Origin: Bryum argenteum
Taxonomy: Eukaryota; Streptophyta; Bryopsida; Bryales; Bryaceae
Reading direction: 5' to 3'
DNA: 64,000 nt
NCBI GenBank assembly: GCA_037043015.1
Contig: CM073323.1
Coordinates: forward strand, 7,130,001-7,194,000
Part shown: piece after piece, positions 3,941-52,484 of the stretch
How positions within the stretch are numbered: position 1 is the first letter of the stretch
Layout: each line of letters starts with the position of its first letter
Translations under genes and position numbers: made by a program
Notes under the pieces: model-generated
Told to the model about the DNA's origin: nothing
The model's database searches: none
What the model saw: the letters and a program-made list of their open reading frames with translations, nothing else

Positions 3941-4808
3941 CGTAAGAATCGCAAAGATCGCTCCTCAAAAGCAATAGAAACGGGCACTCATCCCATAGTC
4001 GGCAGAAAAGATTGAAGCTCACAACATGCGATTCCGCGCGCACATGGAACGGAAGGGAATACAAGGTCGGGTCTGCCTGTCGGCGGGTCCCACGGCCCGT
4101 CCTGTCCGTTTGCCCTTAAACCCTAGAATGGCTTGTCTTATGCTCATTGGATGTTCTCTGACGATCCCTGCTTTCAGTCGTTGCTTGCTTGCTTCGATTC
4201 ATGCTCTTTGTCTGCAATATACTGTATGGGGACGTCCACACGTCTGCCAATGCGTGTCGGGCCACCGAAGTAGTAGTGTGGGGAACACTCAGCGTTGGGA
4301 ACGACAGTAGTATATGAGTTAGGTTAGGGTTTTCGCTGGCGTCACTCACTGCCTGCGAGGCCCTGTTCTGTTGCCGACATAAGTTTCGTGCTGCATTTGT
4401 CGAGTACGCTTCCGATGTTGATGACTGTGTGGAAGCCAAGACTTAGGTCACGCACGCACCGACTCTAGAGCGGTGTAGTGATTTTTCGACGTTGCGAATT
4501 GGTAAATATTGTCTGCGTTGCCTCCGATTGTGGTCTTCAAACGGAAGTATCATGACGCTAAGCAGCATCCACGTCTTGTGTGCAGATGATCTTACGGGAG
4601 CCGATGGGTGGGCACTTTCGAGCCGCCACTACGTACTGAGAACGGTCACTCCTTCTACTGTCAACGCGGCGAGATTGGCCGCTTGTTTTAGGGTACGTTG
4701 CTTTTCTTCGTTTTTGGGGTATTCTTTTTTGTGTTGTGGGAGGGGGTTTATGTATTGATGAGATGAGCTCGGTGGTGAGCCAGTGAGCACAAGAAGCAAA
4801 CGAGGGTC
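3941..4808. promoter_or_regulatory. Shared intergenic promoter of two divergent genes, with two telo-boxes
   Basis: This stretch separates the start codons of the minus-strand STEEP1/DUF167 gene and the plus-strand ubiquitin protease, so it must hold both promoters and 5' UTRs. Two telo-box-type motifs are visible in opposite orientation: AAACCCTAG at 4118-4126 and TTAGGGTTT at 4324-4332. Telo-boxes are common in promoters of broadly expressed plant genes. No clear TATA box was found. Short open frames here look incidental. Confidence 0.55.
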
Positions 4809-16053: not shown

Positions 16054-18606
16054 TGCAATGTTCAAACTTCACTGCTCCCAATCCTGTTTCCCTACATTGT
16101 CTGCAATTCAGCCGTGACCTCCACCATCTACCACAAGCTCTACTGAGCCGGACTTGGTGCAGCAACTTGAAACGCACCAAAGTGATAGTGGTAAGCGCGC
16201 TCGGCATACTTAATGACTTCAGTGCTTCCAGCGATTCCAGCGGGGGGTCGTGGCGCTGTGCACGGAGGTACCCACAGACAGCCAACTGGCGACAATAGTG
16301 CGCGGCGACAAAACCGGTAGTGATGAGCAGATGGACTCTCCGCATTCCCAGGATCTATTTTGCCAGTTTCCGGGGGCTCGGCATCAGGAAGAAGAGCGAT
16401 CTGCACCGTGTTTCTAGTCACGATTCTTGCTGCTCTTCCTGGATCTCTTTGCCCCAGCATTCATCCATTTCTCTGATTTCAAACGCTCAATTGAACGCCC
16501 TTCGGATGGAGCGAGTGGGTTCATTCATCGACATCTGCATGTATTTCATCGAAATCTGCATGGAATTCATCGGTCTCTTGCATGAGTAAGCGGGAGTACT
16601 CGCGAATTCAAATTGCTCAGCTAAATTTCGTACAACACCTGTCGATGAGATCATGAGATTCGAGTAGAGCCAAAGGACCTTCCCCCAGATAATTCTGTGT
16701 GGTCTATCTTTGGATGTTACGACGTCACGGATATTCGACCCAGTTTATACAGTATCGATATCGATGATGCTCGTGTCGTTGAAATCTAAAAATATGAAGA
16801 GGAAGGTTGGCTTTCGAGGTGCTTTCGCTCGAGGGTGTCTCTATGGAAAGTGTTAGAGCATTAGAGTTCAAGCCTTTTAGGTGAATCAGTCTGTCCGCGC
16901 CGGTGCTCGTATTCGACTCCGAGTACCTACTCTGCTTCGATGCCACTCATTCCTGAAAGCATTCACCTGAATTCTTGAACTCAGAATATTTTGCATGAGA
17001 ACGGTTAAACTCTCTTTCACCAGAGCAGACCTTGCAACAAAAGAGCCACAGAATATTGATGTTTCTGTATGCAGTTTCGTTTGGATTCCATGCAGTAAGA
17101 ATGTGTTGATTGGAAATCGTATGCAAGAATTACTAAGTTCAAAGTTTTATTGGGTAGTACATTGTTGGTTTTTGTTGTGTAGGCATATTGCTAAGGTTAG
17201 GTTGAATTGACATTCTATTCACGACAACCGATGACATGTTTGGTGTTCGTATTTATTACCAACGTTCCGTTGATGAAGTGCTGAGTTACACCATTTTAAA
17301 GTGTACTAAATCATTGCATCACTAGTAGTGAGTAGAGTTGGTGGATGTAATAACCTTGTCATTAGTATAAAACATAAATGATGATTTCCTGGCATGCCTA
17401 ACACACCAAACACTACATTGATTTTACTTGCTCTTAGTTGTGAATGAAATGAACCCTTCATGGTCTTTTCAAATTTGAAAAGTCTCTCATGAGTCAATGA
17501 TGATAGACTTGGACTTCCTCTTTGAAATCAAGTGAATCTAAGACATTTTCAGCATACGTATATGAGAATGTATGGTCTTGTTAATATGAAGCTTTAATCA
17601 ACCATAGCAATTTCTCAAAAATTGAAAAAGAGTGTACTAGGAATATGAGATTAGATATTGAGCATATCTAATGCATGTAACCTTGATTTTTTTGAATGAT
17701 AGCATGCTTACCAAAAATGGCACTTTTGGGGTGTAGAATGTTCATAAATAGGTAACCAAAAATATGTGAATTAGGGTCAGTTCGAATGTGAGGATACAAT
17801 GTTGTAGAATGATTGTTTTGAAACAATCAATTCTCATTTCGAAAAAGGAGGATGATACTTCTCAGTGATGTTAGAGAGAGTGATGGTGATTTTACACAAA
17901 ACAATTAGTACTTATGGAACATGATGTAATATCATAGATCGAAAGTGAGTGATATTACAAAGTGATGGTGTCATTACAATTAGTGCCATCTTGCAAGCAT
18001 AACTAGATTTGTCATTGAAATGACACTTTGTGCCAGAATAGCAATTTTATGACTTTCTAATTATTGTCAATTTAAGAATACACATGTCTCAATTTTCAAG
18101 ATTTTTGAATACCTTGAAATATAAGTATGTTCAAGAGTTCAAAAAATAAAATAAAACCCTAGTGGTTAAAAATCTATTCACTTTGACCAACTCAAAGTCA
18201 CTTATATTAATTACTGCAATAGAGCTCCCACCCAAAACTACTAGAGTGACTCTTTTAGAAATCACCAACTTTCATTAGCTGAATTTGGGGTGCTTGTTTT
18301 TTTCATTTCAACTTGAAAGCATTTGACAAACTTAACCTCTAAAGTTGGAGGAGGCAAAAATATGGTTGTTTTGACTTGCTATAATTAGATCATATGAGGT
18401 TCGAAGCTTCTACAAATCTTAGAGTTTTCTCATATATTTGGAATAAGACCATTCATATTTTGAGGACTCCTCGTACTTTAGAAGATATTCACCTCTAGAG
18501 TTTAAAAATACTATTGGGACATGTATATATCCTCATTTATCCTCAAAATTTGCCCAAAAACAATTTAGTTGCACTAATCTCAAACAATCACCAAAATTTG
18601 AGAGTT
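16054..18606. other. Upstream flank of the oxidase and AT-rich DNA
   Basis: The first ~450 bases are relatively GC-rich and probably hold the oxidase promoter and 5' UTR. The short frames at 16140-16460 have no recognisable domain. Beyond about 17000 I see only AT-rich, repeat-like DNA. Confidence 0.45.
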
Positions 18607-26074: not shown

Positions 26075-26084
26075 TGCATGGGCC
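26075..26084. repeat. Left target-site duplication of the MULE (TGCATGGGCC)
   Basis: These ten bases are repeated exactly, in direct orientation, at 40635-40644, immediately outside the terminal inverted repeats. Ten bases is within the 8-11 bp usual for Mutator-like elements. Confidence 0.88.
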
Positions 26085-26118
26085 GGACATTACTGTGGCA
26101 TGAGCGTTGAGCGGTGAG
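26085..26118 (+). repeat. Left terminal inverted repeat of the MULE
   Basis: It starts GGACATTACTGTGG and continues into tandem TGAGCG-type heptamers. Compared with the reverse complement of 40601-40634, 25 of 34 positions match, with the inner 18 nearly identical. Confidence 0.82.
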
Positions 26119-26512
26119 CGCTGAATTTCAAATTCTTTAGCTAGGAAAAGTTATTAAAAGTAAAAATATTACTAAAAAAATTATTAAAAATTTAAAAAAC
26201 AAATATTTTCAAGAATATTTTTAAGATTCTCACCTATTACCGTGGATCTCAGTACCTATAACCGTGGAATTTTTGGGCATATACTTTGGATTTTTTGTGG
26301 TGAAGACACGTTGTTCACAACAAATTGAACCAAGTTTGATCACTTGGACAATTCATCATATATCCAAAATTAGTGACGACTGTGACACGGAAAACATGGT
26401 ATTCATATAAATATATTAATGTTTAGATATATCGTGTTACATAATGTTTATAGGTCTAGCCAATACGAAAAACTATAGAGAGTAAACTAGTAAATAAAGT
26501 GAATGGGGTGAA

Positions 26513-27487
26513 CTAAGAAGTAACGTGGTCTAGTACCCCCCTCTCGAGAATTGTCTTGACCTCGTTGAAACTAAGGGTAGCCGCATGCATGAAGAGATCC
26601 ATTTCGACATCTAGTTTGCAGACTGACTCTAGAATAAAGTAGAGATGCTTGCAGTTTTTATACAGGTTCCCACGTCTACCTAACTTAGCCATTGTCTCTT
26701 TGAATGCTGGGCAATTGCATTCCGGGAACGAGCTGATCGAGACTTGATAGATCGACTCGGTCGGAGGCAGTTTAGACTGCAACGTAACCACACACCCAAA
26801 ACCGGGTTCGGGGATCATAGTCACCTTCAAAATGGTTGCCTTCATCGCCTTGGCAGAGTATATGTTCTTCATTTGCTTCGACGAGGCTGTCGGACATGAG
26901 CGACGGATGGTCTTGGAGTTTCGCGTCTTCGGAAAAACATCTGCGTTATCCGGTACATGAACATTGGACAAATCACGAGGTGGAGCACCATTCGTAAACG
27001 TCCGGTTTACAGGGACACGCTCCTTTTGAGGAAGTTGAAATCCGGCATTCTTCAATGCATCAATTTCACCACGCGTGAGATTGGTCCCGATTTTCACCGG
27101 CCAAACCAAAGGGATAGGCGGTCGTTCATCCGTCTCGCTGAAGGGCTCAATCCACCTACGACGAAATCCCTTCACGCACCTCTCAATATCATCTGCACAG
27201 AAGAAGAATTCTTGTACCACCTTGCGGGGAGCTTTCTGAGGGTGGTTCCAAACTCCGGTGTAAGTTGGAGCTGGGGTGCTCCTCCCGTTTAGGACTATCC
27301 GGGCGGTACATTTCTTCCTAGTTACAGCCATCTGTGCCCAACATGCTTTAGCGGAATGCTTACCGACACGGGCAATATGCCATAGCTTCTCGTTCACTCG
27401 AGTCTCTTGCACGGCACTAACGCCACAAATATCGGACCAGCGGAGCTCAAAGGTTGAGCAGACTTTCCTCCACTTCATGTTCTTCAC
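26513..27487 (-). pseudogene. C-terminal transposase exon with SWIM zinc finger
   Basis: An open frame of 324 codons with no useful start codon, so it is an exon of the transposase gene. A SWIM-type finger C-x-C-x(19)-C-x-H sits at residues 257-281 of the frame (ECNCP ... NCKHLYFIL), as is usual near the C-terminus of MURA and FAR1/FHY3 proteins, where it helps bind DNA. The stop TAA/TAG region lies about 430 bp from the left terminus of the element. Confidence 0.75.
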
Positions 27488-28770
27488 GAATTGTGCTCAA
27501 AGTATGAGCTCGTGCTCGAGTAACTCTAATTCCTACCTTAGGTCGGGAGAAGTTCACAAAACCGGTCTATGAGTTTCTTCTTCAGACCAATGGGAACATC
27601 TCGCTTTTCGTTTCATGGAACCGAAAACCTCGGCTCCTCGTGATGATGCATCACGAGTACAGAACTCTTCGGCTCCGGCATCTCGAGGATCGCCTTGTTG
27701 AGGAGGAAGGATCTCCCGGTGCGGTGCGCACGTCGTTGGGCTATTCAAGTCGAAGTTCCTCCTCGACGGTCCCGTAACCACCCGCTCCGCCTTTGAGGTG
27801 CGGTAATAAGCCACCACTTGCAAGAAGGCTCGAATGTAATCGTCCCACGGCCGCAACGCATGTGTCTCCACCTTTGTTGCCCGAAGCTTGAAGCCATTTG
27901 TTGTGTACGGACTCGGCAAGATTGCAAGATGGCATTTCCGCTAACTCCTCTTGAGTGTATTGTTTTTCCTACGTTCAAGAACATCAAGTTTTGGTCACAA
28001 TGGATGAGAAAAGTCACAAGACATTTGGGAGGTAGGGGCTCCCTCATACGAGGAGCCTCCTAAATATAGATTTTAAAAAAATTAAAAATTGAGTAAAAAA
28101 AATTTACTTTTTACTTTGGAGTAGTAAAAGACATAACTCATAGAATCACGTAAGGTTGAACTTACTAGCTCCATAACCCCCCATTGGCGATATCGAAAAT
28201 GCCCGAATGCGAGCCAAAACCCCAAATGTCTCACTCCATCATCGGAAGGCGCGTGAAGACGCGTCCACCATGCTTTGATTCCCAAATAGCGTGTCTCGGC
28301 TCTTCCATGGACGAGGCATTTTTATATTGAAGACACAAATGCTTGTGTTGGTCTTGTAGTTCATGGCGAATGTCTCGCTTGTCATGTTTTCTCAAGGCGA
28401 TCGAGACCAATGGAAGAAGCACGTCTGTCTTGTCCTTCCATGGGCACGGTAGGGGGTTGCCAAATCCGTATATGATCCGCACCGCATTCCAATTGGCTTG
28501 TGCACTATCGACCATGAAACCTTGAAACCGAGGCTTAGGGACCCCATTTCTTGACATCACATGGTTCGATTCTTCCAAAAAACAATTTGAGCTTCTCTAT
28601 CCTCGGACATAAAATCACAACAAGCAATTGTAAGTACTCGTTGGTAATCGAGTCGTATACGCGTGGCACGCCATGGTCGTCCAGTGGATAACACGTTTGA
28701 CGTGATCAAACATCATCCAAGCATGCTCTAGATCACCACCAGGTTGCATCCGCCGACTGCGTCCACTCCA

Positions 28771-29439
28771 CTAGCGGGGCCAACTTCGACATCTTGAAAA
28801 TGAAGACTTTGTCCAAGTCGTCTCCTTGCCCTGGAAACATGTTACGCTGAACAAAGGCCCACCATCGAGCCCTCCGAGTTTGGTAATACCGTCCATGACT
28901 CCATAGCGCCTTAGATACCCGAACGTGTAGACACGGTTTCTAATACTTGGAGAGTTTAGGTCTTTACAACTATCGAACGCAGGCTCTAGTTGTTTCAAAG
29001 ATAGGTGGGTATGAGGCTCGTCCTCTTGACGTAAAAGGTAGTTTCCTAGAAGGTCTCTGTTGGCCTCCATAACAATCTTAGAAACAGGAGCCTGTGGATT
29101 GCGTTCGACATGTTCTTCAATCAACTCGTCAATCTTGCTCCGTGTACCTCTGTAGTCCCCAACCTTGACAGGGTGGTCGTGATTGCCGATATGAACGCAC
29201 GCACGCTCTTGGTTTTCATCACCAAAAATATAATAGATCTTAGCTTTACAAGTGGCAACGCAAATAGGAGGTTCCTTACAAATCCTGCAGATGATCGTGG
29301 ATGCGGAAGGAGGTGGTCCACCAACTCCGAATGGGTCTTTAGAGGATCCATCGAACTCAACTTCGTTCACCTCTGCTGCACGCTTAGGTCTCTCGCAAGA
29401 ATGGACAATTCGATTGCGACATCGGGACATGACCAACAC
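28771..29439 (-). pseudogene. Transposase segment with Cys/His (WRKY-GCM-like) DNA-binding domain
   Basis: The frame contains ICRICKEPP, then CVATCKAK, and about 20 residues later ACVHIGNHDHPV. This spacing of Cys pairs followed by C-x-H-x(3)-H-x-H resembles the zinc-stabilised DNA-binding domain (GCM/WRKY/FLYWCH-like) found at the front of many MULE transposases. The frame has no ATG near its 5' end that would serve as a gene start, so it is internal. Near 28870 the coding signal moves to another frame, where RWWAFVQRNMFPGQ and KLAPLVEWTQSADATWW continue the protein. Confidence 0.6.
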
Positions 29440-29666
29440 AATTAGAAGATCCGAAAGTCAAGCTCATGGTGTTGGAGATGTTAGTGGTCATGGTTTTAGT
29501 CCATAAGTGTCCGTCGTAACGTTTATCCATTCCATCCATGGATTTTGCATTTTTGTTAGCGGCCCAGATAGAAGAACGGGTGGAAGAATGAAGAGAATGT
29601 CACCATTGAAAGATGATGGTAAACTAACTACACGGACTCGTCGGATGTTAGCATAATCTAGTTTCT

Positions 29667-30284
29667 TCAAAGATCGTCTTGCTCATCGGGCATACTACCT
29701 AACTTGAGGAGGCAGGCGAGAATGTTTTTGGGTTTTGACGTTTGTGAGGAATGTTGTTGAGGGATAGGGGTAGACAATTGAGATGTAGTAGACGGGGATT
29801 GAAGCGGAAGAGGAGAACAATTACTTGGAACCGAAGTGTTGCGCTCGTCATCAGATGCCTCAGTAAGGTCTATGCTAACACGTTCACATGGTTCGACCTT
29901 TATACGACGTAGAACGGGAGTGATCGTTGACAGAGTAGAGGAACTACGGGGGGTCGGTAGGACAGTTGAAGCAGCCATTATAGATTCTGACAATCCGTAT
30001 AGGCGGTACTTGCCGGTATTAAGATCCCAGCTTTGCTTCTCATTCACAAGCACTGGACTAGGTTCAACAACCATGGAATACATGACGTTCAAGGTGATAG
30101 GGTCTACAACGTCCTTCTCTAACCACAAAGACGACGAATGGAACCCGAATCTAATTGATAACACTTGAGCAGTTACGCGAGCTACTCCTTGGGGGCCTGC
30201 TGGTATGCGTAGAGGAACTGGATCACCGGGAGAGAGAATTTCGACAACGTTCGGACTAGTAAGCTCTGAAGACGAGGATGCCAT
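29667..30284 (-). CDS. N-terminal part of the transposase gene, 205 codons
   Basis: It starts at a good ATG (30284; MASSSSELTSP). It is Ser/Thr/Pro-rich and probably disordered. It contains a SUMO-acceptor consensus IKVE (residues 128-131) and, directly after, VSIDLTEASDDE (136-147), which has the form of a SUMO-interacting motif. The frame ends at 29667, and an overlapping frame (29670-29488) continues with protein-like sequence, so there is either a frameshift or an unrecognised intron. No family match for this part. Confidence 0.45.
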   Translation of the reverse strand: MASSSSELTSPNVVEILSPGDPVPLRIPAGPQGVARVTAQVLSIRFGFHSSSLWLEKDVVDPITLNVMYSMVVEPSPVLVNEKQSWDLNTGKYRLYGLSESIMAASTVLPTPRSSSTLSTITPVLRRIKVEPCERVSIDLTEASDDERNTSVPSNCSPLPLQSPSTTSQLSTPIPQQHSSQTSKPKNILACLLKLGSMPDEQDDL

Positions 30285-30394
30285 GATAATAGAACGAGGT
30301 ACGACAATAGTAGAAAGGAGAATGGAAGTCTTTCTGCAGAGTATATGTATTTTGAATAGTTATTACCTCTAACCCTAGATTAGTATAAATAAAA

Positions 30395-30893
30395 CCATTT
30401 GTATACTCCACCTCCAAAGGCTGACAGAGTAAGTTTGAAAGTTTGCTACATGACAAAAAGTAAGTCACATTGAGTTAGAAATAGCCTTATTTGGATTTTT
30501 GCAGATCACACAATGGTGTTATGTAAACGTGTAAAGGTGCGGCGGCTGTCATTGTCAGGTAGACGCGTATATATTCTTAGTGCTTTAAGCGTAAGATAGA
30601 ATTTAGAATCCTATGTTAAGCCATCCTATGTTAAGCCATCCTATGTTAAGCCATCCTATGTTAAGCCATTTGTATACTCCACCTGTAAAGGCTGACAGAG
30701 TAGGTTTAAAAGTTTGCTACATGACTAAAAGTAAGTCACATTGAGTTAGAATTAGCCTTATTTGGTTTTTTGCAGATCACACAATGGTGTTATGTAAACG
30801 TGTAAAGATGCGGCGACCGTCATTGTCAGGAAGACGCGTAGATATTCTTAGCGCTTTAAGCGTAAGATAGAATTTATAATCCTATGTTAAGCC
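30395..30893. promoter_or_regulatory. Tandemly duplicated 228-bp segment between the divergent MULE genes
   Basis: The block 30395-30622 is repeated at 30666-30893 with few differences. The linker is made of 15-bp units ATCCTATGTTAAGCC (four in a row, 30609-30668). It lies between the start of the minus-strand transposase (30284) and the probable beginning of the plus-strand gene (about 31113), so it is well placed as a bidirectional promoter or enhancer. Confidence 0.7.
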
Positions 30894-31971
30894 GGAAACA
30901 TAGAGGATGTCAGATGTTCAAGACTGGAATGACGGGTGCGCCGGCTGTAGATCTATTTTATTATATTTTAAAATTGAATCTGAGTTCCGGGGACAAGGTA
31001 TATAGTAAGAGTGGAGCAAGGATTCAAAATCATTTAATCTTGAGAGCTAAAGTAGTGGACATCTAGAGCTGTATTCTTGTTTTCTTGTGTGGTGTTCTCA
31101 GTTCTAGAGACTACATGAAGGACATAGTTGAAATACCGAGAGAGTAGCAGGACATTCAACGAAAAACGGAAGAAGAGAGGAGGTTTGAAGTTTAGTGGTT
31201 CTAAACAGCGCAGGCGGATGGCGTTGAGGAGGAAAGAGTCAATGTCTCAATCCAAATGCGATGGATCAAGAGAGGAGCGCGAACTTGAAGGGAATGCGGA
31301 GCGGCCGGAGCCAACCCCATTCCAACTGAGGTGTATTAGATGAGCCACTAACTTAGAGAGTGTTTCAGAGGTCGATGAGTATGAAAAAGTAGAGGAAGAT
31401 TGCGAGAACACTATAGACGAGGTCTTCTCTACTGCTTCAAAGTATTGCACTTCCTAGAGTGATTCTCGCCACGCCGAGAATGACGATGAAGACCAAGGAG
31501 TTGATTCCGATGAATTGGTAATTTTTCAATTGCACATTAACTTCTCTATTTGCCTAATCTAAGTACTTGGAAATTTGGATAAAAAAAACTTGATACTTTC
31601 TTTCCACATCCTTGTAGATTGTATAAAATCAATTTTGTTAAGTAAATAGACCATATTCTCCATCTCCCTGTAGATAAACCCTTATGGTTGCTTCATAAAA
31701 ATCATTTCATCTGAATCTCCATAAAGGTAAGAGTCACAAATCCAACAAACAAGATATGAATAATCTATAATCTAGTGTATAAGTAGAGTGTAAAAGTAAA
31801 CCGTTCCGCATTCTCTCAGGTGCCGAATAAATGAGTATAAAACAACCTTCATACTCTTTTGGTAGTTCACAATCATTTAAACCAAAATTTTGTCCAATGA
31901 TCACACAGACATCGATGCATACTGATACATCCATAGACTAGATTATGTACTTCAGTTTACTACATCCATAG

Positions 31972-32196
31972 ACTACACTAAATTTGATAATTAGTGTTAG
32001 ATTATTATAAGATTTGAAAATGCTATAAGTTTTTACTTTTGTTTCTAAAAATTTACCAAGATCATTGATTCTGATACTATTTAAGGACCCCCATCTTGGC
32101 CAATATAGTGGGTAAAATTATTGAACAACGATAAAAACTTATAACGTGTTTATGTAAATTAGTGAATCTAACACTAATTACCAAACTTAGTGTAGT
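31972..32196. mobile_element. MITE copy A (ACTACACTAAATTTG termini), nested in the MULE
   Basis: A 225-bp non-coding element with ~30-bp terminal inverted repeats (ACTACACTAAATTTGATAAT at the left, its complement at the right). Its reverse complement matches 53868-54091 almost end to end, which confirms both ends. It lies inside the MULE, in DNA with no coding signal. Confidence 0.85.
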
Positions 32197-32309
32197 GACT
32201 GGGGAGATGTCTCATCCACCTTGCGGGGCACCATCTAAGATGACATTCATTCATTGGTGTGCACTTGTTGGCAATCCCCTCCAGAATGAAATTAGCTGAA
32301 TCCCGATAC

Positions 32310-32399
32310 CATGCTCGATACCATGGCCGATACCATGCCAGATACGATGGTCCATACTATGGGCGATACCATGCCCGATACCATGCTCAATACCATGCC
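32310..32399. repeat. 12-bp tandem repeat (GATACCATGCCC type)
   Basis: About seven diverged units containing GATACCATG, directly followed by the GGGCCATCGCGCC minisatellite. Open frames across it are by-products of the repeat. Confidence 0.8.
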
Positions 32400-32702
32400 A
32401 GGGCCATCGCGCCAGTCTCCAGGGCCATCGCGCCGAGTCTCCAGGGCCATCGCGCCAGTCTCCAAAGCCATCGCGCCAGTCTCCAGGGCCATCGCGCCGA
32501 GTCTCCAGGGCCATCGCGCCAGTCTCCAGGGCCATCGCGCCGAGTCTCCAGGGCCATCGCGCCAGTCTCCAGGGCCATCGCGCCGAGTCTCCAGGGCCAT
32601 CGCGCCAGTCTCCAGGGCCATCGCGCCGAGTCATGGGCCATCGCGCTGAGTCTCCAGGGCCATCGCGCCGAGTCATGGGCCATCCGCAGGGCCATCGCGC
32701 CG
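32400..32702. repeat. GC-rich minisatellite, 21/22-bp units
   Basis: About 15 units of GGGCCATCGCGCC plus AGTCTCCA or GAGTCTCCA, often alternating between 21 and 22 bp. The alternation keeps several frames open on both strands, so the long Ala/Arg/Trp-rich frames are not evidence of a gene. It stands out by its GC content in an AT-rich neighbourhood. Confidence 0.9.
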
Positions 32703-33121
32703 TTTTTTTTCTATGTTGTTTTGTGAAGCGAGGAGTTGAATGTTTTTTTCTCTTCCGTTCCAAGTTATCCTCACGAAAATGGTCAAGCGCGATTGGAGGA
32801 GAGATTCACGTTGGAGAAGGAACCCGAGTCGGAGGAGATGACGATGTTGGAGCGCGGAAGGGAGGGTGCGGGGCGTCGGCGACGGGTGAGCATTCGACAG
32901 AGGATTCGTTTTGGGAGCATCTAAGAACTTGTGGGAAAAGTTTTCCCATTTCGATAGAGGTAGGAAGGGAGAGTTTCCTCGCCGAATTGGAGACTGAGAC
33001 AGACACACAAGAAGAGGTAAGATCAACCTGTTCAAACCCTAAACCATTCTGATGAGCCTAAACCCTCAAGAACTGCTCTTCGTGATAATGTTCGTCGTGG
33101 TCCTGTTCAATCCGAAGGCTC

Positions 33122-34631
33122 CCTCGTGTACGAGGATGTTCTCAGTTCTAGGTCCGAAGGCTCCCTCCCACCACCTCAAATATCTTCAATATAGAATCTC
33201 AACGATGCTGCCTAGCCTACTCTTCCCAGATTCGTAAGCGTCGTGTGATGAATCGCAGAACGAGTTGTATGCACGCCCGGCGTACGATTGCTCTGATGGT
33301 GGCTCGTATCCCATCGCTCGGTAGCCCGAGTCTCGCATTGCCTGGCCTGCTCCGTGAGCAGGTCTTACCTTGCGAGCAGCTTCGGCGGCGCGTTCAGTGC
33401 AGGTGAGCTCGGGCTCTGGTGCGCCCCAGACGGTGGCATCGTAAGCTCGCGCTGCTGTGTCCGAAGGCTCCCTCGTGTACGAGGAACTGTCGGAATTCAT
33501 TGGCCAGGGCCGGATCATCTTGATCCAGCCGTTCCGGATCCTCATGCTCGTGATGCTCATGCTCGTGATGCTCGTGATGCTGTCATCCTCAGCCGTTCCG
33601 GATCCTCATGCTCGTGATGCTGTCATCCTCATGTTCGAGTAGGTTTGTGAGCGGTGTGTGAGGTTTGTGAGTGCGGGGGTGACCTCGTGTACGAGGATGG
33701 CACCGGGATTCATTGTCCAGGGCCGGATCCTCATGCTCGTGACGTTGAAGGTGATAGCCGCGTTCTGGTGATGGCCGCGTTCTGCGTGGCTGCTCAGGCT
33801 ACATACGTCGAGCCCCTGGGCGATGGAACGAAATTGTGATTTTGGTGGTTCAAAAAAAAAACCCAGAATTTATGAACTTGTACCTGTACCCTCGTACACG
33901 AGGGAGTGTTCGATGCTGGACACCGTCTGGACATATGACTCTTTTTGTCTTATCCATTCATGCTGACGGTATGAGGATTTCAAGCGAATCGGTGCGGTAT
34001 TCGTGATCTTTGTTCATCTCTTTGATCTTGTCACGCAGACATTAGAGTGGTCAAACCAAGGATTGGTCAAGTACACATGAGAGCTGAAGTAGGGTGGTTC
34101 AACCAGTGTGACCTCGTATACGAGGTTGTAGTAATGGGAGTCATATTTGCTACTATGTTGTCTTCATAATGCTCTCAAAATCTATAATCTTCTAAGTTTA
34201 GATAATTCTTTTAATTCATTATGATTAAATTGACCATTCTTGCAAATTATTGTAGTTTTTTGTGAATTCAGGTTGTTTCCTCGTTTACGAGGTAAGGTAG
34301 GCATTAAAATGTTTCTCTATTGAACAGATTTTGATTATAATACGTTTACGAAGAAGGATAGCAAATACAGTTTTGATGGGTGCCTCGTGTACGAGGTTGG
34401 GTAAAGAATTCGGTTCTTGATCGTATTTTTGTCTATTCTTTTTATTACACTTTGGGCATGGGCATTGGGCTTAAGCACTCTCCACTTGTGGTAGGTATCC
34501 TCGTATACGAGGGTGAGATCGAATCTTAACCAGTTAGATCAAAAGTTTGTGAATGTTGATAATTATTTTAAATATATGGGCTTTGGAATTGGGCATCACT
34601 TCATTTGTGGTAGGTATCCTCGTATACGAGG
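33122..34631. repeat. Cluster of nine inverted-repeat sites CCTCGT-NN-ACGAGG
   Basis: Fourteen-base sites with identical 6-bp arms occur at 33122, 33471, 33683, 33890, 34112, 34279, 34383, 34499 and 34618 (first base of each). The 2-bp centre is GT, GT, GT, AC, AT, TT, GT, AT and AT. Flanks are mostly unrelated, except that the last two sites lie in a short local duplication and the first two share CCGAAGGCTC. A tenth copy is at 40296-40309 near the right terminus, and a 12-bp shortened version (CCTCATACGAGG) is at 28042-28053. The pattern of fixed arms with variable flanks looks like binding sites for a dimeric DNA-binding protein. Confidence 0.9.
33536..33632. repeat. Short tandem repeats of CTCATGCTCGTGATG type
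   Basis: Several 9-15-bp units (ATGCTCGTGATG, GCCGTTCCGGATCC) are duplicated here, between the second and third CCTCGT-NN-ACGAGG sites. Frames across it give Asp-Ala-Arg-rich repeats of no recognisable family. Confidence 0.7.
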
Positions 34632-35734
34632 GTAGGTGTATACAAGAGAAAATTTCAGCCAACTTTGATCATTATAATCTCACAACTGAAGAATAATCAA
34701 TGGTTCATATTTGAGATGTGATTAGAATGTCTAATTCAATTTGAGATCCTACGGTTAAATCTTCTAAATAATTATTAGACTAGGATTTTTTAAGCCTAAA
34801 GTAGAAGAAGGTCAAATATTGTGTGTTAGATTGTTTTGCATCAAGATAATTTTAGGGGCTCAACTAGTTAGATTAAGAATTTGTAAATGTGGAAAATTGA
34901 TTGAAATAATTGAAATTAAATATCATAGGCTTGTATGGAAGTGGGTTTGCTAAACGGGTAAAATCAGGTTTTTCTTGAGCTCAACTACACTTACAATGTT
35001 TCTATAGTGGTTTGTGAATGTTCCCTTCTCTGTAAAGGTTCCGGTAGTGTTTCAATCTTTGAGTCCTAAGAGAAAAGTTTAGTAGATATGTTACTCTTCA
35101 TTCTTGAGCTCAAAATTCAACCATCTCTTTTTGTTTCAGTCTAAACATGTTTAATTTGTTCTGTGCCTTATTATTTTTTGCCAATGTGCACTCATGATTG
35201 TGACTAAACCGCTATATTCTTTTTGTGTGCAGGAGTTCTCTGCGGATAGCATGGAGCATGTCATTGAGTCTGACACTGATAGTAGTGATTTTGATGGAAT
35301 GAGTCACGGTGTTCAAAATTGGATTTGAGACCGTACCGTTGTCTTAGGTTTACCTGCCACGATCGTTCCCATGGCTGAGCCCTCTAATGGGGATTCTTTT
35401 CCCCGTTCCAATGTTGTATCATCCAATATTGTTGACAAGGAGGCTCATGCTCTATTCATGAGAGAATGGCGACGTCATACACGTGAGAAGAGACTAGAAG
35501 CTCGAGATGCGGCCCGTTTAGCCCCTAGACGGTCTCCTAGGCTAGCAACTTTTACTTAACTTGATTCATGATTTGACTCTCCACATTGTATTGTCTTTGA
35601 CAATACAATGATTTATATTTTGTATTATCCATGGATGATAGTTTACTAATCATCATATTTTTATTGATATACATCTATTGACATTTGTTGTTTGCATAAG
35701 TTTAATTTAGTGTTTTACCCTTTCAATTATCCAG

Positions 35735-36619
35735 CCAAGAGATGGCGATGACGATAATGAGAATGGCGAGCATACTCCCTTGAGTATTCCGGAGACCCAA
35801 CCCATGGAAGAGGATCGCAGTCTGCCGAACGTCCCGACACCATCCACTGGACAAGACATCCCCCCGCGCCATCACGTAAGTGACATTGAGAATGGGGACG
35901 GGCCAGCGCTTACTCCGGATGAAGGGGCCCAAGCAGTGCTTCCTAGTGAGCATCTTGCTATTGTGCACGCAACGCACGCCCTTGGGCTTGCTTCACCGGA
36001 GAGAGAGCAACAAATGGAGGGCCCGTCATCTCTTTCCGAGGATTCCGATGATGATGAGACCGCTAAACATCCTTCACATCTCAAGGATAAGGATATGAAG
36101 TTTAGCGAGCACGAGATTCGAGTTTGCACCACGGCGGACTCCGTTAAGGCCATCAAAGGGATTCTCAACAAACCGGAAGATAAGTCCCGGTTTCGAATTC
36201 CTTTATGTCGCCTTCAATCTTACCCGAAGGTTAGACCTGTTCTTGAAGCCGACGTGCGGGCTTCAAAACGAGTTTGCCCGAGGTTATAGGGAGGGTGATC
36301 GCGTCATGTACGTCTCGTTATATGACGAGGATAGTCGGGATCTTCTTGTTTCCCTGGAGATTGTCAGCACTTGGGATGAACATTGGGTGAATGAAAATAG
36401 ACGATTCGAGGACGACCTGTCTCGTGACGTCCACCTCCATCAATTTCAAGGCAAAATGTTTTTTGTCTATGAAGGGAATCATCGTTTGGGCCGCATGGAT
36501 GCGAGAGATTGCGAGTTTCACCAAGAAGATCCTTCTTGGCACATTCGGGTTGACTGCATCGTGCTTGATGCACGGGGAAGGAATGGCGTTCTCGTCAATG
36601 CCATGGCTGACGTCAATTG
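35735..36619 (+). pseudogene. ParB-like domain exon
   Basis: After an acidic, low-complexity start, the exon reads RFRIPLCRLQSYPKVRPV, then (after a one-base frameshift at about 36260) LQNEFARGYREGDRVMYVSL, and then KMFFVYEGNHRLGRMDA with VDCIVLD further on. A 'xIPLxxL..P.VRP' strand-turn, a helix, a strand and a 'GNHRLxA' motif is the pattern of the ParB/sulfiredoxin-like fold (box with G-x-H/R-R). In prokaryotic ParB this region binds nucleotide; in other members it is a nuclease. Which activity applied here is unknown. The exon ends in AATTG|GTAAGT and joins 36711 to give NWSTEND. Confidence 0.55.
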
Positions 36620-38663
36620 GTAAGTTGGTTGTCTTCCATGAAGTTCGATTTACATTTTTTTTCATTAAGCTTAACTTCTTACATCCTCATGCATATGGTT
36701 TGAATTGTAGGTCGACCGAGAACGACTTCGTGAAGAGTAGTCTTCAAGCGAAGTTACAACGAATTCGGACGTTCGGATCCATAAAACTTGAGGCTTTCAG
36801 GGACTTGATTTCGGAAGAGGCATATGTTTTTTGCCAAAAAGAGAAATCAAGGCGTACCACTTGGTATTCTCTGACAGTTGACGTATTTGTAGCATTCTTG
36901 TTCAAGGTAATAATTTTAAGTATTGATCTTCCAAATACTGCTTATGGCTATGGTCAAATGTTATGTAATTTGTACTGTGTGATTTTCGTAATTCACAGAG
37001 AGAGGTTTCTCGGACTCAAGACCTTGCTGCAAAGATTTACAAGGAGACCACTGCTAAAGAGAAGCAAACCGGACACGGGGTGTGGTTGGCTATGCATCAT
37101 GCGCAACAGAAGACCATCAAGATCTTAAAGGGTCGAAATTTTGAAAAATTTATCGCGGTGGCTAATCCACAAAATGGCCCCAAGTTCTTCGACGAGGTAC
37201 GTATAATATATTATTGCTTTCTATTTGATTACCCGTAAGATGATAATTGACGTGAGTTATGTCTTAATCAGATTACTACACACTACTCGACTTTTCCAGT
37301 ACCCGAGTTGTCAATTGAGCGACTCCAAAAGATTGCTACATCTCATGTTGAGCCGAATTCAAGGCAAAGTGGTCATCTTGGTGGAATAGCACGGATAATG
37401 AAAGACAGCTTGTGTGTTTTCCCTTGGATCGTCCAATGAAAGAGAAAACCTTTGACGCCTGGATTCAGAAGGCTTCTTTTTGGGCACAAGTATGCATGCT
37501 CTCTGATCAAACTTGTATTTTGGGTTGTTCGAATCTCTGAAACTATATCATGCTTTAATTCTCATTTACGTGATTCACAATCGTTTTTGCAGTTGGAGTT
37601 CGAGCTCGTCTGAGAGTTCAATAAGATCCTCGAAAATCACGCTATGCCTATTGTGTGGAAAGAGGACGTTCTCCCTCCATCCGCTTACGTAGAGCATTGG
37701 AGGGTGCGCCTTTGGGATCACGCGTACCTTGCATATCTCGCACCAACAGCAGGCCCAAAGTTTGTCAAAGGAACCGATTTGAAGAAGTTCGAGAATGGCA
37801 CGTTGATCATCAAACTCTTGGTCTATAGGTATTTTATGCTCCCCGCTTACTTATTTATTTGCTTTCTACTTGGTAATAATTGGTTTTCTAAACCATTTTG
37901 TTTTTCAGGTACTTTACCCGCGAGTTGATGACCAAAGGTGCTCTTCGTTTGTCTTCTCTTCCCGAGTTTTACAAGGATGCTCGTGATAAAGACTCAAGCA
38001 TAACGCATTCACTCCTCGCCGATGCGAGAGGTTCTCAACAAAGAGCCCTCAAGACTGGAGCTTGGTTTTGACCGCCGCTCGGCCCGTTCGTTCCCACGGA
38101 GGAGCAAGATCTTGCGGTGTCAATGGGCGTCGTCTCTGCACCTCAAGCTCGTATCGACATTGAAGACGACAATGATGCAGGAGACTTCGTCGACGATATG
38201 CCTAACCGAGCTCCTAAAGTTGGGAAGAAACGTGCTCAAGTGCCAGCAAGATCACGACCTGCAAGCCATGAACGCATCAATGTCTCAAGGTGGTCCTTCG
38301 TCACAAGCTGAATCTGGTCCTTCCCTTACTCTCGGGCAAGTGAACGTCTTGGTGACGTTGATGGCTTGCCATCCCACGCCACAAAATTCAATCGGCTTGT
38401 TCGCGGTCGCGATGTGGTGCGTCCTGACTTGTCTGAGAAAGTATCTGCTAACGTATCACCCTTGCCCATATTCCTCGAGCACGGAGACATGGGTGAGGTT
38501 TTGAACTTGAGCGACACTAATTCCCGCATGGAACCTCGGTCATCGCATTATGCGGCATATTCGTAAGGTAAACCCATATTCTCATAATTTCATATTGTTT
38601 TCAATGTCCCTTTTTAATCGTGGTGATTTTATGACACAATAATTGTTATACTTTATCGTCCAG

Positions 38664-39570
38664 GTTGGGAAAGGTCGTGATAAGCCCATTCGAACATGAC
38701 TATGAAGCCCAAACATCCCTAAGCATTGACCTAATCATCACCGATGCACCGAAAACCTTACGGTGCCTCTCATCGAACCACACGTTGTACCCATGTGGAA
38801 CATGCGAGATGACGATTATTTCGATAACGTGTTCGCATTTCTTTGATGCGAATCTAACGGATGATGGGGTTATACTTCTCATGCACCCAAGGGATAGGGC
38901 CATTGAACGAGAGTTGGACGAGTGCACGTATAGTTACCGATTCAAGATTGTTCGTGATCGGTGGGGTTATAACCCACTTCGTTTGACGTCCGCTGTTGTA
39001 CTCGGCTGCGACGGTAAATCTACTGCCGTTTATATTTCTATATTGTTTTCTCCGTTCAATTTGATAGATTGTAATGTGGTTTTCTAATCGCCCGATTGGA
39101 TTGTGTAGACTCGAACTTCCACATCAAGGTCTTTGCAAGAAAGGATGCAAAGTTTGAAATAAAGAGATCGAATGGTCTATGGGGCAACTCGACATTCTCC
39201 CCCGACGACAATGACAACTTAACCAACTTCACCCACGCCGAAGACCGGATGTTACGCCCGATGGGAAACCGTGGCGGGCGCTCGGGAGAAGCATCCAGAT
39301 TTCATCCGGTGTTTTTATCGAGTGTTTGACCGACGAGAACGACATCGTGTTTGATTGGAGTGTTTCTACGGTATGTGGTTTATGTCAAGATTGAGGATAA
39401 ATGTGATCAAGTGATTTATACTAACACTTGCTCGAATTGTTTTTGTACAGAGCTTCATTATCGCATGCAAACGAACGAATCGTTTTCTCATCGGCTTGGA
39501 GCGAGATGAGGAAATCTTCGCGACAGATCTTGAAACCGATGTTAGAGCAATCGCAAAGTCGGCTTGATGC
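38664..39570 (+). pseudogene. Beta-class DNA methyltransferase-like domain exons
   Basis: Upstream at about 38480 the protein reads IFLEHGDMGEVLNL, as in the 'GD..evl' start of many N4/N6 DNA methyltransferases. Exon 38664-39013 then gives SIDLIITDAPKT, a motif IV look-alike in which DPPY is replaced by DAPK. ANLTDDGVILLMHPRD (the usual post-motif IV strand) and YRFKIVRDRWGYN follow. Exons 39109-39370 and 39451 onward give LTDENDIVFDW, then IIACKRTNRFLIGLERDEEIF, which fits motif X/I (D-x-F ... GSG ... RxxIGxE). Motif IV before motif I is the beta-class order, typical of adenine-N6 or cytosine-N4 enzymes. The changed motif IV and missing GxG argue against catalysis in this copy. Confidence 0.55.
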
Positions 39571-40295
39571 AAGCTCATCCAGAGATCTTACGAGAGGATG
39601 TGGAGCCTAGGAGGAAGAAACCTCGCAAGTACATGGGTGCGTTATATCCGCTCTTTGTATTTTAACTTTTTATGACGCTTTTGTAAACGGGAATTTCTAA
39701 ACTTCACTTTGGAATCTAGTCACGCAGATTGACTCAAGATTATCACTCCATTCGGATCTCATTCGAGTCCTCCATCGCCATTTGCGCTTCCTCGTATCTT
39801 TGAGCGACTTGCCGAGCGGTGGGTGGCGACTCCATCTCCTATTCGTGCTCAAGCCCAAACACCAAAAGTTTCCTCAGAGTGTATTGCGCTTCATAGATTT
39901 TGAAGCTGACCAATGTGATGAAGAATTTGACTCGCCCCACGATAGCGACCATTCTCTTGATTACTATTGAACTTAGCCTCCCTATAGCTTTTGGCAACAA
40001 TATTCGATATTTTTGAATTCGTATGTTTTCAACTCATTTATGAGTTACTATTACTTATTTATACATCTTGGCGTATTGGTTATATATTAAACCGTTTTAA
40101 TTCTAATTACCATGTCTAAACCGCTCTAATATTTTTTTGATCACGCCAAATCAAATTTGTTGTTTGAGTGAGAATCGGTGTATATAAAACTCAGTTTGTA
40201 TTAAGAATGTTTATGAGGTAATTGGAATTTTGAAACCATAATATGTAAATCGAACAATTTTTTTCTTAAAAAAAAAAATCTATTTTTAGGGGTTC

Positions 40296-40309
40296 CCTCG
40301 TGTACGAGG
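40296..40309. promoter_or_regulatory. Tenth CCTCGT-GT-ACGAGG site, near the right terminus
   Basis: The 14-base site is embedded in a longer imperfect palindrome running from GGGGTTC to GAAGCCCC (about 40290-40316). It lies about 325 bp inside the right end of the element, downstream of the last coding exon. A similar extended palindrome with a shortened core is at about 28034-28062. Confidence 0.8.
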
Positions 40310-40406
40310 AAGCCCCCTACTTCTGACAATTATGTCACCTTCTCTCGCCCTTCACGACTTTTGCTTGAGCGAGAGAAACCCTAAACCATCTAAACCCCTA
40401 AAGTGA

Positions 40407-40426
40407 TGACGTCTGTGATGACGTCA
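40407..40426. promoter_or_regulatory. Duplicated TGACGT / TGACGTCA element in the right subterminal region
   Basis: GTGATGACGTCT is followed at once by GTGATGACGTCA, which holds the perfect palindrome TGACGTCA (40419-40426), a standard plant bZIP (ACGT-core) binding site. It sits in the right subterminal region of the MULE next to AAACCCTAAACC telo-box-like repeats. A regulatory role is inferred. Confidence 0.45.
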
Positions 40427-40600
40427 GCACTAACCTATTGTATAGTGTACCCAAAAACCTAAACAAATGTGACTTAAGTCCACGGGTTTGGGAGCATTTA
40501 CTTCTAAACCCTATACCAATATTTCAGTTTTATTTACCCTAAACCGTGGTAATAGGATACTTAATATTCGTAAACTCGGGGGGATTTTTTTGGAAATTTT

Positions 40601-40634
40601 CTCACCGCTCACCGCTCACGCCTGTGCATTCCCC
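40601..40634 (-). repeat. Right terminal inverted repeat of the MULE
   Basis: Its reverse complement starts GGGGAATGCACAGGCGTGAG and continues with TGAGCGG heptamers; 25 of 34 positions match the left end. It is followed directly by the target-site duplication. Confidence 0.82.
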
Positions 40635-40644
40635 TGCATGGGCC
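40635..40644. repeat. Right target-site duplication of the MULE (TGCATGGGCC)
   Basis: An exact direct repeat of 26075-26084. Confidence 0.88.
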
Positions 40645-49919: not shown

Positions 49920-51329
49920 CTCCGACGGTTCTGGGCTCGCAGTGTATCCTTGCACGACGGCTTTGATGATTTGCGTTGCTCGAACTTGGGAGTCGTGGGA
50001 AACACCGATAGTGTTTAACTCCATAAACTTCGTCATCCTTAACGCAACGTTCGCATCTTTCAAGATAGCCCACCTGCAAAACCAATCGCATGCAATGAGC
50101 ATATGCTTGCAGAGATAATCGTGGGCATGGTCTTGATCGATCGATTACCCGATGCGAGTCCCCGCATGGCCAGTGCTCTTCGAGAGAGTGAAGAGCATGA
50201 TGTCATAGTCGGCTGCTTCGGTGATGGGCGTATAATGGGGCCAGTAGTAAGCCAAGTCGTGCATCACATGCCCCGTCCCTCCTTCCACTACAGCATGGTT
50301 AATCTTCCCGTCCGGGTTCCCGGGCGACGTAACCATCTCAATGTAAGGCGCGCGTTCGGGATCGAACGTTGCCGCGTCTCCGGCCCACTTGTAGAGCGCG
50401 GACCGCAGGTAATCCGTCACAGGCGGGTACGACTGCACACCGAATGAGAAACGTCTGAGAGACTGCACGAATGGAGGTACGATCAGAGCAGCAGGATCGG
50501 GACAAGTACATACGGAGTAATAAGGCGTCGCGGCGACGACGTTCGTTGGCGTAGGTTGGTCGGGAGATGTGAGAGCGTAAAGCGCGGCTTGAAAGAGCTG
50601 GGTGGAACCCGTGCCCACCACAATGTGGCGGCCTTCGGTAACCGCGTTGCCTACCACGTGATGCAAAGCGCGAATCTGCTCGTCTAACTCGTTCTCCATG
50701 AACCACACATGCTTGCTCTGCGCGAAGTAGCTCATTCGCTGATAGCCCAAAATGACCGATATGCTGTTGGCGCCGTTCCTGAACCAATATTCTTCGAACA
50801 ACGTCGGGTCGCCACTGCAAAACAGGCACTGTGTTAGATCAGTCAGAAGGCAGGCCATAGCCAGAGAGTGATGGACCGAGCCTTACTGGTCTAGATTGAT
50901 AACGCAGGTGTTGATCGTCTGAGAGCAGTCCGCGCCGCCGAAGCACTCGTAACACTTGCACGTACTGTCGCCGAGGAGGTAACCATGACCTGAGCAAGGA
51001 AGAACAGCAGTCGCTCCGGCAATTTCCGAAACCAATTTCAGGAGCGGGCCACTAATGGCAATGGGAGCCGTCGTTGGAGCATGAGCATATCGCTTGAAAT
51101 ACCATGTCGACACCAGTATCACCATCAGTGCGATGGACTTCGCAATCCAGTAGTCATTGCTCGATTGCCCATGATTCTTCTTCGCCATCGGATCAACGTA
51201 CTTGCTTGATAGCATCGCCTTCGGCAACGTAGCGGCTACAAGATGCTTCTTTCGAGACCGCTCTCGTGACTTATGCTGCCGTCGCTCCTCATTGTTATGC
51301 TTCACAATCCTCTGCGCTTCGAACGTCAT
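49450..51329 (-). CDS. EGF/alliinase-family PLP aminotransferase (TAR3/TAR4-like), 4 exons, 552 aa
   Basis: Exons are 51329-50887, 50814-50149, 50073-49739 and 49664-49450. All junctions are GT..AG and phases chain without a break. The start is the ATG at 51329; the frame is also open 21 nt upstream to a TGA but without an ATG. Residues 61-78 are a hydrophobic segment after a very basic N-terminus, suggesting a type II membrane anchor. An EGF_alliinase region follows (C112, C124, C126, C129, C135, C142), then [14 protein letters not shown] at the first junction and the alliinase C domain. The PLP lysine fits K360 in [23 protein letters not shown] and VTSPGNPDG match the cofactor/substrate loops, and the C-terminus has the family's GGQHFG and VRLSMLD. 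Members are C-S lyases (alliinase) or tryptophan:pyruvate aminotransferases in auxin synthesis; sequence alone does not decide. An unusual poly-Asn tract lies in exon 3. Confidence 0.92.
49884..49919. repeat. Coding (GTT)n microsatellite, poly-Asn in the aminotransferase
   Basis: One ATT and eleven GTT triplets, read on the minus strand as twelve Asn codons (eleven AAC, one AAT) between PEPSE and KLFHYG. A surface loop in family members normally occupies this position. Triplet repeats of this kind vary in length. Confidence 0.93.
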
Positions 51330-52484
51330 CGCTTCCAACTCCTTCTTCAATCATGAAAAAGGCCCACACTTCCACCCCGTCTCCGATAATCTGTACAAGA
51401 AACACAAATCGTCACCACCACAAATTCTCTCACGCACGACGTCCAATTCCGAAGAATCAACACTTAATCGGCAATCAGAAAACACTTAATACATACCTAC
51501 CACACGCAATGATCCCAGAAGGCAGGCGCAGAAACGGGAAAACACGTACAAGTACGCTGGCTACAACCCCACAAGGAAAAGAGAATGCGATCATCTAGAT
51601 TAGCAGTGAACTGGCCTACACGGATCGTACACAAGCCAGCAGGGAGGGGAAGTTCAGGAAAGACCGCAGTGGCGGAAAGGTGGAACAGCAGGAGGCGCCG
51701 CCGACATTCTCCTGAAGGTGGAAATCTACCTCGATAGAAGTGCCGGGTGAGAAAGGCGAAGTCGCTGCTGGGGAGGAAGCTAAATAGTGAAAAGAATTCC
51801 CAAACACAGGGGAGGGCGTCACAAGCAGCCGCCCTCCTCGCACGCCACCAGACCCGGCAAGGGAGGGGATACTACACTGCTGCTGTGCTGCCAACTAATG
51901 GGAACCAGCAGGGGTGCTTATAAGGTGGCGCCGCAGCACACCATTCTCTCCTCCTGGTGGCTGGCGAGAACTGGCACAGACCAGAAGTGGGTCGGAGCGG
52001 TGACCGGATGGAAAGGTCTGGTCTTAGCGGAAGGGATGCGATGCGATGGGATGGCGCGCCCCCCAGGGGGCTTCAAAGCTCCCCTCCCAGTCCCTCGTCG
52101 CGGGTCCCGCAGTCTTCATTCAGCGAGATCCCCACAAATATTTCATTCATGGAGATTGTTACTTGCTGGCTGTGTGCTTTTATAAGCCACCGTTATTAGG
52201 CGGCCCCCTCTCCCCTGCCCCCTTTTATGGGCCTGATAACTCATCCACCTCATCGCCTTGTGGCTGTGCCGTAACTTTGCAAATTGGCCCCTCAGAGGAT
52301 CCCATTCCCATCCCCTCATATTGTCACCAAATGGCACGTTCTCTTTTGACGACTAGCAAAGCTTCATTTTTGGGCAATCGTAGGTAGGGACTCAACTTTG
52401 CTTGGCATGATATTTGATCATTACATCTAAGATAAGAGATTCAAGGTTGGTCATGGATCTTGAACGAGGGGACCTTGATTTGTG
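51330..52484. other. Upstream region of the aminotransferase
   Basis: Moderately GC-rich DNA up to about 52200, likely promoter and 5' UTR of the minus-strand gene. Open frames on both strands have no recognisable domain. After 52200 the composition returns to AT-rich. Confidence 0.4.

Follow-up and report, generated by a model that had tools for sequence, protein, structure and literature searches.

A ParB-like/methyltransferase-like gene of a large Bryum argenteum transposon and a repeated palindrome as its candidate target

What might a land-plant transposon gain from a gene that joins a ParB-like domain to a DNA methyltransferase-like one? The question is raised by the stretch C3:7130001-7194000 of the 258.8-Mb Bryum argenteum assembly (64,000 nucleotides, called the window below), in which a 14,550-bp element carries, in divergent orientation, a broken transposase gene and a frameshifted copy of such a composite gene, together with the 14-bp palindrome CCTCGTNNACGAGG (6-2-6) at 10 places. 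The element was compared with ten related genomic stretches (e1-e10), of which e8 and e9 are partial copies. Our tentative answer, to which we give a probability of roughly 0.45, is that the product of the gene is a DNA-binding accessory factor specific to the element, which would recognise CCTCGTNNACGAGG and thereby mark its own element.

An earlier note on this DNA had placed a multi-exon gene at 35233-39970; the coordinates proved right, GT-AG was found at most exon borders, and the peptide motifs that it had listed (IPLCRL, VYEGNHRL, DLIITDAPKT, NDIVFDW and FLIGLERDEEIF) are all present in the stretch. The parts of the gene are the following.

35233..39970, plus strand: ParB-like/methyltransferase-like gene, frameshifted copy, in the right half of the element
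31128..31517, plus strand: possible upstream exon, a basic then acidic open reading frame that ends in DSDEL before GT, in phase with EFSADSMEH
32741..33016, plus strand: possible alternative upstream exon, ending in ETDTQEE before GTAAGA, also in phase
35735..36619, plus strand: ParB-like domain exon, with GNHR at 36474-36485 and a frameshift near 36260
36711..38568, plus strand: five middle exons (36711-36906, 36999-37196, 37272-37489, 37593-37828, 37909-38568), borders partly putative
38664..39013, plus strand: methyltransferase-like exon with the motif IV position at 38743-38754 (DAPK; DAPE in most copies), 3' border read from the sequence
39109..39370, plus strand: methyltransferase-like exon ending in the start of motif I (VFDWSVST), from the sequence and copy comparison
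39451..39640, plus strand: exon with the rest of motif I (IIACKRTNRFLIGLERDEEIF), 3' border uncertain
39719..39970, plus strand: last exon, with an acidic C-terminus (SDHSLDYY) similar to that of relative P0009, 5' border uncertain

In the window copy the coding sequence is broken in at least six places, by frameshifts or stops; in related copies both domains are open, and the composite protein comes to ~1,150 residues. As a protein query the broken 1158-residue composite found no relatives; exon-sized queries found 9 and 22, the 22 being those of the ParB-like part. No domain was recognised by Pfam in the middle exons, including the helix-turn-helix and the C-terminal dimerisation domain of canonical ParB. 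The ParB-like exon is present in eight of the nine measured elements (absent from e2) and the methyltransferase-like exons in all nine. Genome exon searches, which scored 150 of 1542 and 90 of 2515 candidates, gave at least 233 and at least 260 exon matches. Among the matches listed, ParB-part matches are followed 1.2-2.9 kb downstream on the same strand by a methyltransferase-part match in 23 of the 28 close cases and in 9 of the 41 divergent ones, and in none of the 69 does one lie within 4.5 kb upstream. The 5 close and 32 divergent matches left unpaired may reflect a methyltransferase part beyond the matches listed, nested insertions or real losses. The gene is confirmed as real and as more than a chance arrangement.

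Over 5 pooled copies, the ParB-like exon had a ratio of non-synonymous to synonymous substitution rates (dN/dS) of 0.24; the pooled ratios of the three methyltransferase-like exons were 0.32 (14 distinct copies), 0.25 (18) and 0.31 (15); the window, gapped and short rows were excluded, and these are rough values, obtained by pooling related, partly decayed copies, with the pooled figure for exon mtA including a row labelled e2 that is in fact a divergent neighbour of e2. Against the divergent copy L013, the exon with the DWSxST motif showed saturated dS and a dN of ~0.16. Judged from these ratios, both domains are under purifying selection. This bears on the view that the element carries the gene as a passenger of the Pack-MULE kind and makes no use of it: some transposons do capture genes and many copies are broken here, but the near-constant presence of both exon sets in the measured elements, their constraint and their pairing in divergent subfamilies make that view highly improbable. 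Across ten copies compared over their right 3.5 kb, transitions away from the majority base amounted to 5.4% at CHG, 3.0% at CG, 1.8% at CHH and 0.9% at A/T positions; the excess at CHG and CG would be the expected outcome if the copies have been methylated.

The candidate target of the protein within the element is the palindrome. Its sites, read by pattern search and, for the decayed one, by comparison with related elements, are given below; none is assigned a strand.

28042..28053: decayed left site (CCTCATACGAGG)
33122..33135: palindrome CCTCGTNNACGAGG, central cluster
33471..33484: palindrome, central cluster
33683..33696: palindrome, central cluster
33890..33903: palindrome, central cluster
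34112..34125: palindrome, central cluster
34279..34292: palindrome with centre TT, central cluster
34383..34396: palindrome, central cluster
34499..34512: palindrome, central cluster
34618..34631: palindrome, central cluster
40296..40309: right-end palindrome, 325 bp from the right end

When as many as two mismatches were allowed, CCTCGTRTACGAGG gave 20 rows (the 10 places) in the window, compared with a mean of 0.19 rows and a maximum of 2 in shuffled sequences. Genome-wide, exact CCTCGTRTACGAGG occurs 192 times on the forward and 196 times on the reverse strand, AT-centred palindrome sites counting on both, whereas the reversed control gave 1 and 0. Among the matches listed (100 rows, covering the first 22.8 Mb of C1), 79 distinct sites fall into 9 clusters, all of which hold methyltransferase-part matches and 8 of which hold a ParB-part match. 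In all nine measured elements the rightmost site is 325-364 bp away from the right end, and there are 6 to 11 central sites per element. Towards the left, CCTCGTNNACGAGG stands at a corresponding place in six of the nine (e1, e2, e3, e4, e5 and e7), at a distance of 1.93-1.98 kb from the left end; in the window this site has decayed, in e6 none was found, and in e10 the left end is outside the fetched stretch. The partial copies e8 and e9 seemed at first sight to have no palindrome; in e9 the right site reads CCTCATGTACGAGG, and the likeness of e8 ends before the right site. Depending on which putative upstream exon is used, the central cluster would lie upstream of the ParB-like gene or in its first intron. 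Flanks of sites within one element are 0.356 identical, compared with 0.294 for random stretches; with flanks so nearly random, it is the motif that is repeated and not the DNA around it, the pattern expected of binding sites. Divergence across copies, which is not used as evidence, was 0.014 in the motif vs 0.056 outside it at the right end (14 columns, a tiny sample) and 0.104 vs 0.163 in the centre (anchored on a motif site).

These sites could instead be bound by the element's transposase, or by a host factor, and the ParB-like/methyltransferase-like protein could have another job. Transposases bind near the ends, where there is one site on the right and usually one towards the left; the transposase, with its SWIM-like part, is the other element-encoded DNA-binding candidate; and the one readable upstream stretch of a divergent ParB-like copy (the flank of e3, ~1.5 kb) does not contain CCTCGTNNACGAGG. 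However, most sites are central, ~7-10 kb from the left end and upstream of the ParB-like gene, and even the left site is 1.9 kb inside. A 6-2-6 palindrome, moreover, is suited to a symmetric dimer, such as ParB forms on palindromic parS. We regard the transposase or a host factor as a possible but rather doubtful binder.

Three further repeats were considered and rejected. CGTACCNNGGTACG, present once upstream of the divergent ParB-like copy beside e3, was rarer than its control (2 vs 9). CAATTCGNNNNCGAATTG, downstream of L013, gave 64 and 64 matches against 0 and 0 in the control; the matches are single and, by eye, away from ParB matches, and it was taken as another repeat. It is an 18-bp hairpin, found at C5:21361236 and elsewhere with TCCT or TCCC as the centre where shown, i.e. 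a dispersed repeat. The direct repeat CATCATGMTSGTCGRNTTTTG upstream of a divergent ParB-like copy had 3 matches only, two of them flanking the e3 insertion.

As to what the protein could do at such sites, its C-terminal domain is, by profile comparison, homologous to beta-class (DpnA/CcrM-type) DNA methyltransferases, as the earlier note had proposed. In the open copy e3, N6_N4_Mtase (PF01555) matched with E 6e-5 and 23.5 bits, under the cut-off of 26.7, and a PHROG methyltransferase profile with E 2.5e-6; the window copy alone gave E 0.033 and 14.6 bits for N6_N4_Mtase. Two further genome matches to PF01555 reached 26.8 bits (C4:20498341, just over the cut-off) and 26.7 bits (C7:9878472); the first, which alone was read, resembles the window gene family. 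Motif IV lies upstream of motif I with the spacing of the family (query positions 20 and 173 aligned with 22 and 175 of the DpnA chain), the motif IV piece by itself not being significant in this alignment. A profile built from spliced methyltransferase relatives matched DpnA with E 0.0023, and the match was lost when introns were left unspliced. The low-confidence predicted structure of this part (mean predicted local distance difference test, pLDDT, of 40) gave no Foldseek match at E <= 0.001.

Both signatures of the enzymes are replaced. In place of the catalytic [DNS]PP[YFW], we found DAPE, DAPS, DTPS or DVPG in 7/7 divergent sequences and DAPK in the window, DPP[YFW] being seen in none of the sequences read; in place of the S-adenosylmethionine-binding motif I DPFxGSG, DWSxST, DWHASTG or DLTASTG was found in 8/8. 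Because both domains appear to be under purifying selection while these signatures are replaced, the methyltransferase-like domain is conserved but probably not an ordinary methylase, and the description of the protein as DNA-modifying is not supported. If the protein were an active methyltransferase, marking its element at N6 of adenine or N4 of cytosine, this would agree with the beta-class homology and with the constraint on the domain, and self-marking is suggested for algal transposons in the available part of PMC12477816. Nevertheless, with motif IV altered to D-[AVT]-P-[ESG] and motif I likewise in every divergent sequence read, we consider such an enzyme unlikely here.

The ParB-like part has 22 relatives in the protein collection at E <= 0.01 (48-89% identical), across which the GNHR box is kept, with G, N and H unchanged and R in at least 90%. 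The box II P motif of the ParB/Srx fold, GxxR in the accessible text of PMC12704722, thus occurs here as GNHR. Weak profile matches to phrog_1033, a 'ParB-like partition protein' (3 of the 22 relatives, best E 0.0098, at the GNHR stretch), and to DUF6551 (3 of the 22, best E 0.048) were obtained, and that text names DUF6551 among the fusions of ParB-CTPase-fold phage proteins (PMC12704722). PF02195 (ParBc) was not among the Pfam matches of the window copy, the open copy or the 22 relatives, and NCBIfam gave no ParB match for the relatives. In a model with a mean pLDDT of 45, the predicted order is helix-strand-(helix)-strand-GNHR-helix-strand; apart from the first strand (IPLCRL), which was not predicted, it fits the strand-helix order of the ParB/Srx fold. 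Fold searches with this model yielded no ParB, and Foldseek no match at E <= 0.001. No relatives of this part were found in viral contigs or GTDB genomes, and phage and plasmid matches appeared at E 0.9-7 only, none of them significant. Of the domain as first proposed, then, the GNHR box, the position before the methyltransferase-like part and the open relatives stand, and the expected Pfam family does not appear among the matches of these sequences; the motif, the element order of a low-confidence model and the profile matches point weakly to ParB.

A bolder version supposes a eukaryotic parS-like system, in which a nucleoside triphosphate-gated ParB-like sliding clamp would load on the palindromes and spread, and a chain of clamps with pseudo-methyltransferase tails would shield the element from plant methylation or couple its ends; the two CpGs in the palindrome could make loading sensitive to methylation. 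We hold this to be quite unlikely.

For the accessory factor, we infer binding and its effects as follows. The ParB-like domain, as a dimer or a clamp and with or without the methyltransferase-like domain, would bind the 14-bp palindrome at the cluster that precedes the coding exons of the factor itself and lies between the divergent genes, at the site near the right end and usually at one towards the left. Bound sites would mark the element as self and regulate both genes: those before the gene may serve regulation and protection of the promoter region, and those towards the ends a link with transposition. Occupancy might hold off silencing so that the centre and ends stay open, in the manner of VANC, or else join the ends for transposition, in the manner of TnpA of maize Spm, an accessory protein that sits on many short sub-terminal repeats, acts in regulation and transposition, and brings the ends together. 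The methyltransferase-like domain, being selected yet devoid of the catalytic signature, is taken as a scaffold or sensor; most likely, it would be a DNA- or cofactor-binding scaffold like METTL14, the scaffold-type partner of METTL3. The likeness in role to VANC drawn in the earlier note is strengthened by a motif that is specific to the element and recurs in its non-coding DNA, and binding stays conjectural.

The element that would be marked in this way is delimited by the following features.

26085..40634, no strand: whole element, 14,550 bp, ends common to related elements, target duplication just outside
26075..26084, no strand: target-site duplication TGCATGGGCC, left copy, perfect 10 bp
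40635..40644, no strand: target-site duplication TGCATGGGCC, right copy, perfect 10 bp
26513..30284, minus strand: transposase gene, broken, several exons, with a SWIM-type CxC...CxH part, from open reading frames and comparison with e1 and e3
26624..26749, minus strand: SWIM zinc finger-like stretch (VSISSFPECNCPAFKET...NCKHLYFI), Pfam SWIM E 0.033, below the cut-off

The left end begins with GGACATTACTGTGGCATGAGCG and the right end, as reverse complement, with GGGGAATGCACAGGCGTGAGCGG, the terminal inverted repeats being imperfect. The eight elements with both ends read, among which e10 is not counted, are 13.9-15.9 kb long; the 10-bp duplication is exact in five of them (window, e4, e5, e6 and e7), has one mismatch in e2 and e3, and was not seen in e1. 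An AESVHNKWL stretch is present in the transposase of e1 and e3. The MULE transposase domain PF10551 had no match in the window transposase or the e1 transposase piece in a Pfam profile search, its 52 matches in a genome profile search include none at the elements studied, and a crude profile comparison of the element transposase with eight stretches of this genome that match PF10551 did no better than shuffled columns. The name Mutator-like element therefore rests on the 10-bp duplication and the sub-threshold SWIM finger, which suggest it, and the transposase domain expected of it was not detected.

Several repeats and insertions were seen in passing. The element e2 (C1:3724001-3740000) is seemingly nested in a divergent relative, with the methyltransferase-like part on one side and middle exons on the other, and e3 immediately precedes a divergent ParB-like gene (right flank, C1:17307400-17309000). 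Just beyond the right end of e9 (C3:171720-172090) there is a ~106-bp tandem repeat, with TTCGTNNACGAA in four units. Within the window, a minisatellite-like tandem repeat (CCAGGGCCATCGCGCCGAGTCT-like units, 32400-32700) stands between the two genes, in a stretch that differs in e1 and e3, and a direct repeat of ~231 bp (30390-30890) stands just upstream of the transposase gene start and also in e1 (4716-4946, 4957-5187). A scan of the window with Rfam gave no match. Host genes in the window encode a ubiquitin hydrolase with zf-UBP (4779-7583), a polyphenol oxidase (PPO1_DWL, 14872-16068) and an alliinase-type protein with an EGF domain (50148-51350).

The pairing has precedents in transposons, as it is reported in algal elements in the consulted part of PMC12477816. 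In a land-plant transposon, no report of the pair was found in the literature searched, which covered few subscription journals; as far as seen, the palindrome set and the degenerate yet selected methyltransferase domain are new. ParB plus methyltransferase accessory proteins are hereby extended from algal transposons to a large land-plant family, and the case cautions against taking the methyltransferase domain in such proteins for an enzyme as a matter of course. The gene brings a candidate target with it, since in the first 22.8 Mb of C1 the palindrome occurs, among the matches listed, only in clusters with the ParB-like/methyltransferase-like family, and the function of such proteins is thereby cheaply testable. 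How a transposon recognises itself among silenced repeats is an open question, which would, if our reading is true, become directly testable.

Among known systems, TnpA of maize Spm is likewise an accessory protein on many short repeats; it is another protein, and here most sites are central. DpnA and CcrM share with the transposon protein a motif I match, motif IV at equal spacing and weak profile and structural matches, whereas their own DPPY and DPFxGSGTT signatures are replaced in it. Fusions of a ParB-CTPase fold with N6_N4_Mtase in phages and bacteria, described as common on mobile elements in the excerpt available of PMC12704722, combine the same two kinds of domain in one protein; in contrast, the ParB-like part studied here has no significant relative in phages, plasmids, viral contigs or GTDB genomes. 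Retrotransposons of dinoflagellates and charophytes also carry a DNA methyltransferase gene, but theirs are C5 enzymes shown to be active, with no ParB-like part mentioned in the section at hand of PMC5890265. VANC of Arabidopsis VANDAL elements, as the text at hand of PMC5735166 describes it, is also an element-encoded second protein: VANC21 of VANDAL21 binds a nine-base motif that forms arrays in the introns, upstream regions and other non-coding DNA of that element and is arrayed nowhere else. That motif is a directional 9-mer, often in tandem, unlike the 14-bp palindrome with near-random flanks, and the same text mentions no ParB or methyltransferase part. Closest is the 21.5-kb Ectocarpus element Sola1-1_Ec32 of Dinatale et al. 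2025 (PMC12477816), in which a 1104-aa ParB-like plus N4/N6-methyltransferase protein is encoded opposite the transposase; the part consulted suggests self-binding and self-marking and cites green and red algal cases (Iyer et al. 2011, Petroll et al. 2025). There, as here, a single long protein with both domains is encoded opposite the transposase of a DNA transposon of great length, and the two systems are likened by architecture and position only; the Bryum family differs in its land-plant host, 10-bp duplication, SWIM-like transposase, replaced methyltransferase signature and repeated palindrome.

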